A stretch of DNA of 64,000 bases from Nitrosomonadales bacterium (GTDB lineage: Bacteria > Pseudomonadota > Gammaproteobacteria > Burkholderiales > Gallionellaceae). The stretch spans positions 345,666-409,665 of the forward strand of contig JAHFQZ010000003.1 of NCBI GenBank assembly GCA_023259055.1, written 5' to 3'. The position numbers were made by a program, and so were the translations under genes. This document shows, one piece after another, positions 27,922 to 36,474 of this stretch. Position 1 is the first letter of the stretch. Each line of letters starts with the position of its first letter. The notes beneath the pieces are model-generated. The model saw nothing but the letters and a program-made list of their open reading frames with translations. It was not told the DNA's origin and made no database searches.

Positions 27922-29442
27922 ATGTTAACTGAGCGTACTAGTGGCATATTGCTTCATCCAACGTCTCTTCCCGGGCCATATGGGGCAGGGGACTTTGGCT
28001 CAGACGCATATCGGTTTGTCGACTGGCTGGTAAGTGCCGGGCAAACCTATTGGCAGATGCTGCCGCTAGGGGAAATTGGCCCGGGCAATTCTCCGTATAT
28101 GAGTAGCTCTGCCTTTGCAGGCAACATCCTGCTTATCGACCTCGTGGAATTGGCAGATCAAGGTTGGCTGATAGATGAAGACCTGAAACCCCGCATGGAA
28201 TTTCGGCCTGACCGGATAAATTTCGCACTGTTGCGTCCGTTTCGCCTCGAACGACTGCGACGCGCTGCCACAAGCTTCTTCGCTTACCCTCAGAAGACCT
28301 GGCATCATCAGGAAACAAGTTACGCTGCATATGTAGAGTTCTGCAACACTGAAGGCGAGTGGCTCGACGATTATGCAATATTCATGACGCTTAATGAGCA
28401 ACAAAATGGATGCGAGTGGAGTTGCTGGCCAGAAAGTCTTGCCAATAGAAACCCGCAAGCGCTACAGCATGTAGCAGAAAGCTGTACAGAAGAAATTGGT
28501 TTCTGGAAATTCTGCCAATGGTGTTTTGCGCGCCAATGGTCCCATTTGAAGCAATATGCCAACGAGCATGGGATTCGCATCATTGGTGATGTTCCAATCT
28601 TTGCCGCCTATCAAAGTGCCGATGTATGGGCGCACCAGGAGCTATTCGAACTTGACGAAAAAGGGCGCTTGACAGTTGTTGCCGGAGTGCCGCCCGACTA
28701 TTTCAGCAAGACCGGCCAGCTGTGGGGGAACCCGTTATACCGATGGGATGCACACGAAAAGACCGGTTTTGCATGGTGGATAGCGCGCATGCGACATGCG
28801 CTGAAACACTTCGACTTGGTGCGTATCGATCATTTCCGAGGGTTTGCAGGCTACTGGGAAATTCCTGCAAATGAATCCACGGCAATCAATGGCCGATGGG
28901 TGCCAGGGCCCGGAGCAAAACTGTTCGAGGCTCTTGATGTTGCGCTTGGAGGTTTGCCTATCATTGCCGAAGACCTGGGCATGATTACACCCGATGTGGT
29001 GGAACTGCGTGAAAGATTTAATTTGCCAGGAATGCGTGTCTTGCAGTTCGCATTCGCCGAAGATGAGAGTCACCCTTTTTTACCGCATCACTACGCGCCT
29101 AACTCAGTTGCCTACACAGGCACCCATGACAACGATACCAGCATCGGCTGGTGGAGCACGGCAACACCAGGTGAGAAGGAGTTTGCCAGAAAGTACCTTG
29201 GATCTGAATGTCATCATATTCAATGGGACATGATAAGGGCAATCTCCAATTCGGAGGCTAATACAGTCATTATCCTCATGCAGGATGTACTCGGACTATC
29301 CGGCGATCATCGGATGAATTTCCCCGGCCAACCTAACGACAACTGGGAGTGGCGTTTTTCATGGGGCCAAGTTCTTCCTGAGCAAACACAGGCGCTGGAA
29401 AAAATTTCAGCTGAATCTAGTCGCTTACCGCATTTAAGGTAA
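27922..29442 (+). CDS. malQ: 4-alpha-glucanotransferase (amylomaltase, GH77)
   Basis: Disproportionates maltooligosaccharides, releasing glucose that Glk can trap and making longer chains for phosphorylase. 506 residues, the short bacterial/plant D-enzyme form rather than the roughly 690-residue E. coli MalQ. Motifs: HPTSLPGPYGAGDFG (12-26), VRIDHFRGFAGYWEIP (nucleophile Asp, about 299-314), IAEDLGMITPDV (acid/base Glu, about 348), YTGTHDNDTSIGWW (about 399). Start ATG at 27922, 11 bases after the GH57 stop. It is the last gene before the 445-base gap leading to the cyc2-like gene. Confidence 0.96.
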   Translation: MLTERTSGILLHPTSLPGPYGAGDFGSDAYRFVDWLVSAGQTYWQMLPLGEIGPGNSPYMSSSAFAGNILLIDLVELADQGWLIDEDLKPRMEFRPDRINFALLRPFRLERLRRAATSFFAYPQKTWHHQETSYAAYVEFCNTEGEWLDDYAIFMTLNEQQNGCEWSCWPESLANRNPQALQHVAESCTEEIGFWKFCQWCFARQWSHLKQYANEHGIRIIGDVPIFAAYQSADVWAHQELFELDEKGRLTVVAGVPPDYFSKTGQLWGNPLYRWDAHEKTGFAWWIARMRHALKHFDLVRIDHFRGFAGYWEIPANESTAINGRWVPGPGAKLFEALDVALGGLPIIAEDLGMITPDVVELRERFNLPGMRVLQFAFAEDESHPFLPHHYAPNSVAYTGTHDNDTSIGWWSTATPGEKEFARKYLGSECHHIQWDMIRAISNSEANTVIILMQDVLGLSGDHRMNFPGQPNDNWEWRFSWGQVLPEQTQALEKISAESSRLPHLR

Positions 29443-29762: not shown

Positions 29763-29799
29763 TTGACAGCCCTTCTATGCTGCTATAAAGTTCTATAAT
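29763..29799 (+). promoter_or_regulatory. Candidate cyc2 promoter
   Basis: A perfect TTGACA at 29763-29768, TATAAA at 29784-29789 (spacing 15, short) and a perfect TATAAT at 29794-29799. The leader to the ATG would be about 80-90 bases. Which -10 is used is unclear. Confidence 0.5.
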
Positions 29800-29887: not shown

Positions 29888-31219
29888 ATGAAAAAAGTTT
29901 TTTTCTCTCTGGCAGTTGCATTGGCAACAGCCGCATTTGTGCCAGCGGCGTCTGCTATTCCGTCCTTTTCACGTCAAACCAACTTGAACTGCCAGTCATG
30001 CCACGCACAACATGTGCCAATCCTGAACGGCTTTGGACAAGCCTTTAAGGCCGCTGGTTACCCAATGATGGGCACACAGGGCAAGGTGGAAGGAGATCGC
30101 CTGTCTATACCTGATACTCTAAACGCATCTATGAGAATAAAGGTTCGATACCAGAAATCCAACGGTGCTAATACAGATGTTATTCCCGGTGACACCACCA
30201 ACAGCGGCCAATGGCAAGTACCAGAAGAATTCAGCCTGTTTTTTGGTGGGCGGATTGCGGAAAACGTTGGCTTCTTTTTTGAAGGCAATACTACTGCCGT
30301 CCAATTGGTATCAGGTTTCAGGTTGCCGGCTGCGTTTTCTGTTAGCAATGCCAAGCTGTCAGCGATTCCCTACATGACCGATACGTTGGGTGCAAGTTAT
30401 GGCTATGAGCAAGCCAGCACAGGAGCTGTGCGCAACGTGCGATGGGCGGAACACCGTAAGGAGATTTCTGCACAGCAATACGTTGGCACTGACGGTGCCG
30501 CAACCGGCGTGGCTTTTGTGGGGCAAAACGACATGGGTTACATCAACTTCAGCCGCTGGGCACCCGCCTTCATGGCGCGCTCCGGCGCTGCCCAAACACT
30601 TCGCTCTAACTACTTGCGCATTGCCGCAACACCTAGTGTAAGTACAGCAACCAAGGGAGATTGGTCGATGCATATTGGAGCACAATTCTGGAATGGCTCT
30701 AACTACGCACCGGATTTGCTGACACCCGCTTCTCTAGTGCCGGTCGAAACTCGTGCCACGGCGATCGACTTCCAGGCTTTCGGACAAGTCGGAGGCAGGG
30801 ATCTAGGTGTATATGCCACTTGGGCTAAAGCACCGGCCGGCACTGCCGCTCGACCCAATATACTCAACGCGGGTAACAATATTACCAATGGAAACAATCC
30901 AGTTGGCCCAGTTGATCCCAACCTGTATCGTGTCAATGACCGAAAAGCTTGGACCATCGGTGCCGAATACAGCTTGACTCAATATACTCTGCATATAGGT
31001 GCAGCTTATCGTCGTGCCAATAGCGGTGGCGCATCAGGTGCCTTAGGCATCGTCGGCGATAATCCAACCGACAACGCAGTAACGCTGACCGGTGTATACA
31101 ACATCTCCCAAAACGCCGAAATACACCTGAATCACAGCATCTACAGTGGCACTTTGTACTCTACCCCTCAGCCGAATGGCAAACAGTTGACTACCCTGAT
31201 GCTGGAGGCTTCTTGGTAA
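29888..31219 (+). CDS. cyc2: Cyc2-type fused monoheme cytochrome c-porin (outer-membrane Fe(II) oxidase family)
   Basis: 443 residues. Signal peptide ending AASA (cleavage after about residue 23), then IPSFSRQTNLNCQSCHAQHV: a single heme c site CQSCH at 35-39 close to the mature N-terminus. The continuing NGFGQAFKAAGYPMMG is the conserved Cyc2 neighbourhood. The remaining roughly 370 residues alternate polar and aromatic residues as an outer-membrane beta-barrel and end in Trp (LMLEASW), the usual barrel C-terminus. Known Cyc2 proteins oxidise extracellular Fe(II) and pass the electron inward. ATG at 29888 follows GGAAAAG. The gene is monocistronic, with its own upstream region and strong terminator. 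No periplasmic electron carrier is adjacent. Confidence 0.88.
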   Translation: MKKVFFSLAVALATAAFVPAASAIPSFSRQTNLNCQSCHAQHVPILNGFGQAFKAAGYPMMGTQGKVEGDRLSIPDTLNASMRIKVRYQKSNGANTDVIPGDTTNSGQWQVPEEFSLFFGGRIAENVGFFFEGNTTAVQLVSGFRLPAAFSVSNAKLSAIPYMTDTLGASYGYEQASTGAVRNVRWAEHRKEISAQQYVGTDGAATGVAFVGQNDMGYINFSRWAPAFMARSGAAQTLRSNYLRIAATPSVSTATKGDWSMHIGAQFWNGSNYAPDLLTPASLVPVETRATAIDFQAFGQVGGRDLGVYATWAKAPAGTAARPNILNAGNNITNGNNPVGPVDPNLYRVNDRKAWTIGAEYSLTQYTLHIGAAYRRANSGGASGALGIVGDNPTDNAVTLTGVYNISQNAEIHLNHSIYSGTLYSTPQPNGKQLTTLMLEASW

Positions 31220-31260
31220 TTTATATCTTCGCTCCTGCGGTGTAGTTTTAGCAAGAAGCA

Positions 31261-31296
31261 AAAACAAGGGAGACTTCGGTCTCCCTTGTTTTTTGT
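31261..31296 (+). terminator. Strong intrinsic terminator of the cyc2-like gene
   Basis: A 14-base perfect stem (AAAACAAGGGAGAC with its complement) capped by a stable TTCG tetraloop and followed by a T-rich tract. It lies 41 bases after the cyc2 stop and also separates it from the convergent tRNA operon. Confidence 0.93.
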
Positions 31297-31420: not shown

Positions 31421-31497
31421 TGGGGTGACTGATGGGGCTCGAACCCACGACAACCGGAATCACAATCCGGGACTCTACCAACTGAGCTACAGCCACC
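31421..31497 (-). tRNA. tRNA-His (GTG)
   Basis: 77 bases with CCA encoded. Anticodon loop TTGTGAT reads GTG. The 5' end has the extra G(-1) opposite C73 characteristic of tRNA-His. D-loop and T-loop (GGTTCGAGCC) are canonical. Third in a Pro-Arg-His array. Confidence 0.97.
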
Positions 31498-34261: not shown

Positions 34262-36397
34262 TTATTTGTTTCCGATATAACCAAAGTACCACAAGCCAAC
34301 CATCGCGCAGATACCCGCAGCAATCATCAAATAATAAGGCCACACTATCCGTTTATCAGCAAACGGATCGACAAGCGAGCGATTCGCGCCAGCCGGCAAG
34401 CTGGCCAATCCTGTTAACGAAGTCCCAAATGGAATATTGATGCGTGCCCGCGCATTGATCGCCCATCCGTTTGCATCCAGTATCGGCGCAAGGCTGCGGT
34501 TCTTCAGTTTGAGCCAAGCCAAGACTATCGCAGGACCGGAAACCAGCAACATCAAGCCGATTACCGCCAGTGGTATCTGCCAGAGCTTCAACCCCAAAAG
34601 CCCTCCCACAATTGAAGCAAGTATGCCGCCGATAGCGCCGATCGCCAGGCCAATCGCGGCAAAGATACCGGCAAACTTACCTACATCGAAGGGAGGCTTG
34701 ACTGGAGCTGCAGGCGCAGCAACCACAGCTTTTCCGCCTTCCTCTAATGCCTTGATCATGCTGCCTTCTGCCGAGCTGGCTTTCGATGCAGCCAGTTTTT
34801 GCATTTGCTCGCTGATTATTTTGAATATTTTTTTGTAGGGTGCCCAGAACGCCTGGCGTATGCTGATCGGGTGATCGATGATGCGCACGATGGTGGCATC
34901 CCAGTCATGGCCTTGGCGGTCATAGAAGACGCCGTTGCGCCCGACCAATAGGTAATCCGAGTCTCCTGCGGTAAAAGCTGCGGCGATGCTCATTTTTTCT
35001 GTACCTGAATTGCGAATGCAGTCGCAGTACACCAGACACACTCCGCTCATGATGGCGAAACCTGCATGCTTGCCAACATCCACAACTTTGACGCACAACT
35101 CGCAACTGCGCCCGTCCAGATACAACATGCCAACCTGAAATATCGCCTTATCCCTGCCGGTGTAAAAACTGCGAAACGACACAAAATTGTTCACTAGCTT
35201 GAACAAATCGCGGTTGTAGCGTAACAGCCTCTCTACCGAACGAATCCCCTTTATCTCGGTTTCAACCGCTTTGTCCTGGCCGATCAAGTTATCAATCGCT
35301 GTCTTGTACTTGCTTCGGGTAATCTCGCGAATGCGCGCGATACCAAGTTGCTCGACACTGCCTGCCGGTTTTTTCACTTGCCAAGATTCATAGGCAGCAA
35401 ACTTGCCGCACAACGTAAGCCACTCCGGCATGCTCAAACTTTCCTTGTTGCCAAGCAGCGGCGCGACAACCTGCTTGCGCAATGCGTCCAGTCTGGTTAT
35501 CCAAGCCGGGTTGATGCCTGAGGCCATCGGCAACGACTTCCCCGCAGCTACCGTCGCCAGCGGAAAATTGGCGACCTCAGGACTTAGCGCCGACAGGGTT
35601 TGCGCTGCAAGTTGCAGGTAATCCTCTGTTGAACGGCTCAACGGCACAGCTGCACGATTATCGTATTCCGCCAACTGGCAACGGGTGAAATAATCGCCGA
35701 CCTTGTTCTTGACTGCATCGAAGGCGGCTGCCGCTGCATGGGTTTCTTCCCCCAGAAACAAAATCGCATCATCGTCATCGCCTATGGCAAACCACTCTGA
35801 ATAGGCGGCAGCCTCGGCAAAAAACTTATCGGTGATCTCTTGGTTGATACCAGCTTCGCCGCTCAAATCCGCCACTGAGCCGGCACACTTGATCATGTCT
35901 CCAACTGCTGCACGCAATCTGGCATCGGTAATCCGCCCGGCGCAAATCACCCCGTCGCCATTGAATTCCTGCACCGCAACTAATTTATCGATATCGGCCA
36001 TATCGGCCAGCGAAATTTCCGTCGCCGCTGGCTTTCCCAGACTTTTCAGGATAAGCCGGGCAGAAGCCGACACCTGTTTGCCCTCTACGCTGGAATCGTC
36101 AATGTCAGCCAGAGCCAAACTATCCACACCCTTGACCAGCAAGTCGGCATTTTTCAGCAAGCCGCCTGCCCATGCAATAGCTGCCAGCACTTCGTTGGCC
36201 CGGACACGTCCATCCGCATCACTATCGATTAAATCGAGCGTCCTGACATCGAACTCAACGCCGCGCGTTGGGCAACTTAGCGTCACCCACAACTTTTTAT
36301 CCAACTCCTGGAGAGCCAGCAAATCCGCTCCAGTATCAAGCTGAACCTGATCGAATCCGCCTGCGCGGAAAAAATTCCATGTGTGCGCGGTAGTCAT
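34262..36397 (-). CDS. Large uncharacterised EF-hand protein with C-terminal membrane segments
   Basis: 711 residues; no named family recognised. ATG at 36397 follows a perfect AGGAGG. Residues 58-69 (DSDADGRVRANE) form a canonical calcium-binding EF-hand loop; a second site near 155 (EFNGDGVI) is degenerate at positions 1 and 12. The middle (about 180-560) is soluble and predicted mixed, with CELCVKVVDVG and CLVYCDCIRNSG Cys clusters. An Ala/Pro-rich linker leads to three hydrophobic segments (about 578-608, 616-640 and 685-708). No signal peptide, so the bulk is probably cytoplasmic, tethered at the C-terminus. It stands alone between uvrC and rlmJ. Confidence 0.85.
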   Translation of the reverse strand: MTTAHTWNFFRAGGFDQVQLDTGADLLALQELDKKLWVTLSCPTRGVEFDVRTLDLIDSDADGRVRANEVLAAIAWAGGLLKNADLLVKGVDSLALADIDDSSVEGKQVSASARLILKSLGKPAATEISLADMADIDKLVAVQEFNGDGVICAGRITDARLRAAVGDMIKCAGSVADLSGEAGINQEITDKFFAEAAAYSEWFAIGDDDDAILFLGEETHAAAAAFDAVKNKVGDYFTRCQLAEYDNRAAVPLSRSTEDYLQLAAQTLSALSPEVANFPLATVAAGKSLPMASGINPAWITRLDALRKQVVAPLLGNKESLSMPEWLTLCGKFAAYESWQVKKPAGSVEQLGIARIREITRSKYKTAIDNLIGQDKAVETEIKGIRSVERLLRYNRDLFKLVNNFVSFRSFYTGRDKAIFQVGMLYLDGRSCELCVKVVDVGKHAGFAIMSGVCLVYCDCIRNSGTEKMSIAAAFTAGDSDYLLVGRNGVFYDRQGHDWDATIVRIIDHPISIRQAFWAPYKKIFKIISEQMQKLAASKASSAEGSMIKALEEGGKAVVAAPAAPVKPPFDVGKFAGIFAAIGLAIGAIGGILASIVGGLLGLKLWQIPLAVIGLMLLVSGPAIVLAWLKLKNRSLAPILDANGWAINARARINIPFGTSLTGLASLPAGANRSLVDPFADKRIVWPYYLMIAAGICAMVGLWYFGYIGNK

Positions 36398-36474
36398 GTG
36401 TCCTCCTGATTTGGAAGTGAAAAGTGCCAAATTACGAACCGATTATACAAGCCAAAAGATAGCGGAAAACAGCC

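Follow-up and report, generated by a model that had tools for sequence, protein, structure and literature searches.

We studied a stretch of 64,000 nucleotides from a Nitrosomonadales bacterium of the family Gallionellaceae (contig JAHFQZ010000003.1, positions 345,666 to 409,665; hereafter the window), and in it a gene (29888..31219, +, ATG to TAA) which, judged by its translation, relatives and tree position, codes for a cyc2-like fused cytochrome-porin of 443 aa. The features of the product, all on the + strand, begin with a lysine-led, hydrophobic N-terminus that by eye resembles a signal peptide (residues 1-23, ending in ASA at 21-23; 29888..29956), overlapping at its last residue with AIPSFSRQT (residues 23-31; 29954..29980), which is the Cyc2 consensus AXPXFAR[QK][TY] with A28 changed to S. 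The heme-attachment motif CQSCH occupies residues 35-39 (29990..30004), and the PXL motif, here PIL, stands four residues past it at residues 44-46 (30017..30025), preceded by V43 (30014..30016); FGQAFKAAGY follows at residues 49-58 and P59 (30062..30064) directly after it. AlphaFold2 models predict a beta-barrel at residues 79-442 (30122..31213), with 16 strands by count of the listed elements, and the chain ends in W443. A preliminary description of this DNA had proposed just this architecture, and every part of it was found, the barrel as a prediction. It had also called the heme neighbourhood conserved, which is right in that the neighbourhood is of Cyc2 type, but FSRQTNLNCQSCH is a variant of the usual Cyc2 motif and not its usual form.

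The gene stands alone, between a sigma-70-type promoter-like site (TTGACA-17-TAAAGT; 29763..29791, +) and a terminator-like site with a 15-pair stem and a T run (31260..31293, +). Promoter-like sites are not enriched in the region (2 found vs. 3.0 expected from shuffles), but this stretch stands out as preserved, being kept in 3/3 aligned upstream regions of orthologues (window, G012 and G031; G numbers denote genomes and L numbers stretches or loci from them). The left neighbour is malQ by family scan (27922..29442, +), and the right neighbour is tRNA-His (31421..31496, -), the gene standing beside a tRNA array. A pgsA/uvrC flank is common to the window, G031 and G012 copies, and since the G012 orthologue retains this right flank without the glycogen side, the glycogen setting noted earlier looks incidental. 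Adjoining uvrC we also noticed a 722-aa protein (34262-36430, -) with hydrophobic segments at its C-terminal end by eye and no Pfam match at 1e-5. The CXXCH at residues 35-39 is unique among all picked window open reading frames of at least 60 aa, in agreement with the earlier remark that no periplasmic partner lies nearby.

The window protein gave no Pfam match, no PDB sequence match and, in NCBIfam, one chance match far below cut-off, and we therefore tested its family through relatives. A plasmid collection yielded no match. In a first set of 101 genomes (its own, 60 of the same genus and 40 of the same order), 60 had matches at E 1e-5, and a wider family search found matches in 109/158 genomes at E 1e-40. 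Proteins aligned from fetched stretches carried the exact published Cyc2 consensus in 53/66 cases and PXL at +4 in 65/66. The window protein fell in a 27-row group and, inside it, in a 5-row branch, both with 100/100 support; when 25 sequences were added to give a 60-row tree, the third tandem copy of G163, whose copies match the window protein at E 6.8e-66 to 1.4e-58, fell in the window's 35-row group. Cyc2 pipelines look for at least 365 aa, a heme-binding site and similarity to known homologues, and here we found 443 aa, CQSCH and matches to Gallionellaceae Cyc2 genes, together with PIL at +4, a predicted 16-strand porin fused behind a cytochrome domain, and nesting with 100/100 support among Gallionellaceae Cyc2-type proteins, in trees that contain no biochemically tested Cyc2. 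The Cyc2 call of the preliminary description, an outer-membrane cytochrome-porin, is thus upheld by tree, motif, architecture and predicted fold. The exact consensus AXPXFAR[Q/K][T/Y], whose string AXPXFAR occurred only in PMC8406198 among the literature searched, is broken at one fixed position (S for A). Since it also fails in 18/134 relatives outside the branch described below, the motif behaves as a consensus and not as an all-or-none mark, and on sequence grounds the window protein is a variant nested in Cyc2 rather than a strict-consensus Cyc2. In fold comparison the model's barrel resembles general porins, and the cytochrome domain is poorly modelled, with low confidence in both AlphaFold2 models (residue blocks 11-80 average 45-68 in the better one). 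As to an axial ligand, besides H39 no His, and no Met, is invariant in the relatives' alignment A3.

From the 690 relatives that a protein search gave, we used the best 120. We dropped 10 of these (nine that start after the CXXCH and so lack it, and one short), as well as one short hit (L146) among 83 named-locus hits; the remainder, joined by the sequences from genomes and named loci, formed a set of 257 rows, or 217 after removal of those at least 92% identical; rows without CXXCH were excluded, so that CXXCH is universal by construction. The window protein lies in a branch of 83 of the 217 non-redundant rows (FastTree support 100), delimited by the tree and not by residue 43. Inside the branch residue 43 is never aromatic (V 41, M 18, A 17, L 3, S 2, G 2; n = 83), whereas outside it is F or Y in 132/134 (F 102, Y 30, M 1, A 1), the only non-aromatic rows there being L080 and L160. 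Residue 59, T in 131/134 rows outside, is P 63, R 18, Q 1 and T 1 inside, and both changes are combined in 82/83 branch rows vs. 1/134 others. S28 is present in 69/79 branch rows that reach that position vs. 4/134 outside. PXL at +4 is found in 80/83 rows inside and 133/134 outside, a count partly preset by the choice of named-locus rows through a pattern that includes PXL. Three further positions vary among the other rows but are fixed within the branch (Q236, 83/83; P323, 83/83; R348, 82/83). Because the nearest outgroup rows carry the ordinary residues, the change at 43 and 59 looks derived. In 21 further Gallionellaceae sequences position 43 was F or Y in 21/21 and position 59 T in 20/21 (V in one); one of the 20 stretches read for this, L241, yielded no heme region. 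The stem branch is long (0.34). Pairwise NG86 estimates gave dN 0.057 and dS 0.48 against G031 and dN 0.095 and dS 0.71 against G012, and from this low dN against dS (dN/dS about 0.12-0.13, that is, purifying selection) we conclude that function has been kept. The gene is a real, selected, divergent Cyc2, and its heme-site branch is the new part. Among the papers found by searches on Cyc2 motifs, copies and neighbourhoods, none describes such a branch, judged by titles and abstract openings.

Branch members were present in 6/158 family genomes, all of one genus (this genome, G000, and G012, G031, G034, G035 and G119), counted among the best listed matches, all of those at or above 60% identity and a large part of the lower ones having been read; genes absent from incomplete assemblies would escape this count. 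Matches in G050 and G007 (62-63% identity) are ordinary Cyc2 and not of the branch type. A further Cyc2 is encoded in 5/6 carriers, and none was found in the sixth, G031, which is 66% complete. Branch members and close relatives bear the names Gallionella sp., Gallionellales RIFCSPLOWO2_02_FULL_57_47 (L092, a contig of G012) and, once, Pseudomonadota, and where annotated at source they are hypothetical proteins; a relative from a Nitrosomonas metagenome-assembled genome (partial P0075) lies outside the 83 rows. HNH and/or rpoH genes share the stretch with cyc2 in 17/60 fetched relative stretches, 10 of which have genes resembling alternative complex III (ACIII) too. This slot is occupied by different Cyc2 groups, among them second copies in this genome (L058), G012 (L053) and G035 (L051), and by 0/5 examined window-type loci, two of which are on contigs shorter than 4 kb. 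Small CXXCH proteins beside cyc2 in L036 and L051 were considered as redox partners and set aside, as they are HNH proteins and not cytochromes. The G012 copy has a filamentous-phage-type replication protein (PF05144; L092:3651-4742) upstream and the G034 copy a transposase (L035:2364-3722) beside it, hinting that the branch moves between sites. The window-type copy of G035 is adjoined by a protein with eight CXXCH-type motifs and a PF11783 match (L034:3716-5359), beyond which lies a 200-aa protein that by eye resembles a b-type cytochrome.

Elsewhere in the genome we found a second Cyc2 (G000:C4:172321-173529; L058:8232-9530, L058 being G000:C4:164000-182000), so that the gene, single within the window as first described, is one of two copies in the genome. 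The second copy has the same architecture, with FARQTGMACNSCH, but is 40% identical, retains F43 and T59, and has an HNH gene on one side and rpoH on the other, with NrfD/Fe-S/cytochrome genes of the ACIII type nearby. The genome also encodes class I c cytochromes, including two of 121 aa, at sites other than the window, as well as ccoNOP (cbb3 oxidase) and RuBisCO. MtoA (TIGR03508) and NarG had no match over cut-off in this genome. On another contig we observed a 400-aa multiheme protein (L192:8314-9516, G000:C6) with 15 C-x2-4-CH motifs by pattern and weak, sub-cut-off similarity to the DmsE family. As main known candidates for iron oxidation in the genome we found its Cyc2 copies; PCC3, Uet and other multiheme routes were not searched for. 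Extracellular Fe(II), named earlier as the source of electrons, is a plausible donor, consistent with the second Cyc2, RuBisCO, the cbb3 oxidase and the ACIII-like genes.

We then compared the window protein with described systems. With Cyc2 of Cluster 1 (Mariprofundus ferrooxydans PV-1; Keffer 2021, PMC8406198) it shares a signal-peptide-like start, a single CXXCH close to the N-terminus of the mature protein with PXL four residues on, a predicted 16-strand barrel like OprO/OprP and a length over 365; it differs in A28S, in lacking an aromatic before PXL and in the changed T59, the comparison being one of features described for Cluster 1. All Fe(II)-oxidizing Gallionellaceae that have cyc2 are reported to hold at least one Cluster 1 copy (PMC10734462), and the window protein may belong to Cluster 1, as far as nesting among Gallionellaceae only can tell. 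Multiple Cyc2 per genome are also known from Sideroxydans lithotrophicus ES-1, with three tandem cyc2 genes, of which cyc2_1 is highly expressed throughout, though less strongly with Fe(II)-citrate than with thiosulfate, and the other two, cyc2_2 and cyc2_3, are up on Fe(II)-citrate (PMC8788666). G163 is probably ES-1; its third copy shares the 35-row group with the window protein, but its three copies are in tandem and keep F43, whereas the window copy has V43 and P59 and lies on another contig than the genome's second copy. The MtoAB and PioAB complexes have a like proposed role in outer-membrane Fe(II) oxidation, but their barrel has 26 strands and encloses a decaheme (PMC8406198).

The best reading of these observations is a re-tuned heme site in an extra Cyc2 Fe(II) oxidase. 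We suggest, with a probability of about 0.65, that the window gene codes for a second, divergent Cyc2-family cytochrome-porin of a Gallionella relative, which likely uses a single predicted heme with altered surroundings to oxidize dissolved Fe(II) at the outer membrane. Export, covalent heme at C35/C38 and a barrel of 16 strands whose periplasmic mouth carries the heme domain are predicted. In the published model Fe(II) enters the barrel and reduces the single heme at the periplasmic side, from where the electron passes to a periplasmic carrier (PMC8406198). Likewise, Fe(II) would here enter the pore and hand its electron to the N-terminal heme, a periplasmic c-type cytochrome (candidates are the two 121-aa class I cytochromes) would take it up, and from there it could reach the cbb3 oxidase or travel uphill through the ACIII-like complex towards the quinone pool. 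Loss of the aromatic at 43 and the change of T59 may alter the exposure or redox potential of the heme, and the window copy would for that reason work under Fe(II) conditions that differ from those of the other copy in concentration range, pH or ligand state; coordinated changes on the heme side could mean a shifted potential or another form of ferrous substrate. The wider proposal, that Gallionella evolved a distinct, heme-site-remodelled isoenzyme beside another Cyc2, giving two iron oxidases that would each suit its own Fe(II) potential or ligand state, with residues 43 and 59 as tuning sites, we put forward tentatively, as an idea somewhat more apt to fail than to hold.

Several observations weigh against this interpretation. 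The window offers no CXXCH redox partner, and the trees contain no biochemically tested Cyc2. The exact Cyc2 motif is present in 6/83 branch rows (in 4 of the 83 the sequence begins downstream of it) vs. 116/134 outside. The aromatic at 43 was also lost independently in L080, L160 and the middle copy of G162, which has the NHAP motif as in L080, so that its loss alone is no private mark of the branch; L203:4726 (G162) and L080:6519-7823 (G036) form part of a further, long-branched Cyc2 line. The second copy of the genome also departs somewhat from the typical form, with T at position 42 where 126/134 have H. Finally, given the poor model of the cytochrome domain, what the substitutions do can only be guessed.

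A competing explanation is that the branch no longer takes part in respiratory Fe(II) oxidation and acts as a Cyc2-derived sensor, or as a low-flux electron port for another donor (another metal or complexed iron), with the copy by the ACIII-like genes doing the respiratory work. It would fit a protein that mostly occurs as an extra, with another Cyc2 in 5/6 carriers, that was seen at none of its five examined loci in the HNH/rpoH slot, and that changed in coordination at two heme-side positions; a sensor role has moreover been suggested for constitutively made Cyc2 in Gallionellaceae (PMC12442390). The branch nevertheless retains the cytochrome-porin architecture, the heme site and PXL, and no signalling gene was seen among flanking genes whose families were scanned, and we consider this explanation unlikely. 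That the gene is a decaying duplicate without function, as its long stem branch and loss of near-constant residues might suggest, is very improbable: the low dN/dS, the open reading frames, the preserved promoter-like site and positions such as Q236 and P323, fixed in the branch yet variable outside, led us to reject it. Least credible of all is an ordinary porin whose CXXCH arose by chance, for although the barrel matches general porins and the family databases gave no match above cut-off, 111 of the best 120 of 690 relatives carry CXXCH with Cyc2-like flanks, the other nine start after it, and none of the 120 is a full-length branch member without it, and we rejected this too.

Cyc2 is used as a marker of microbial iron oxidation, and why several copies are needed per genome is unsettled. 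Because the side branch has a changed heme neighbourhood, the activity of tested Cyc2 is not simply transferable to the window protein, and counts of tested Cyc2 should leave out the members of this branch. Through the recurrent HNH-cyc2-rpoH slot, which has ACIII-like genes nearby, the other Cyc2 copies are tied to a complex on the quinone side. The branch is sharply bounded, is marked by two diagnostic substitutions on the heme side and accompanies another Cyc2 in most of its carrier genomes, so that residue swaps could directly test whether isoenzymes of a one-heme iron oxidase are tuned.
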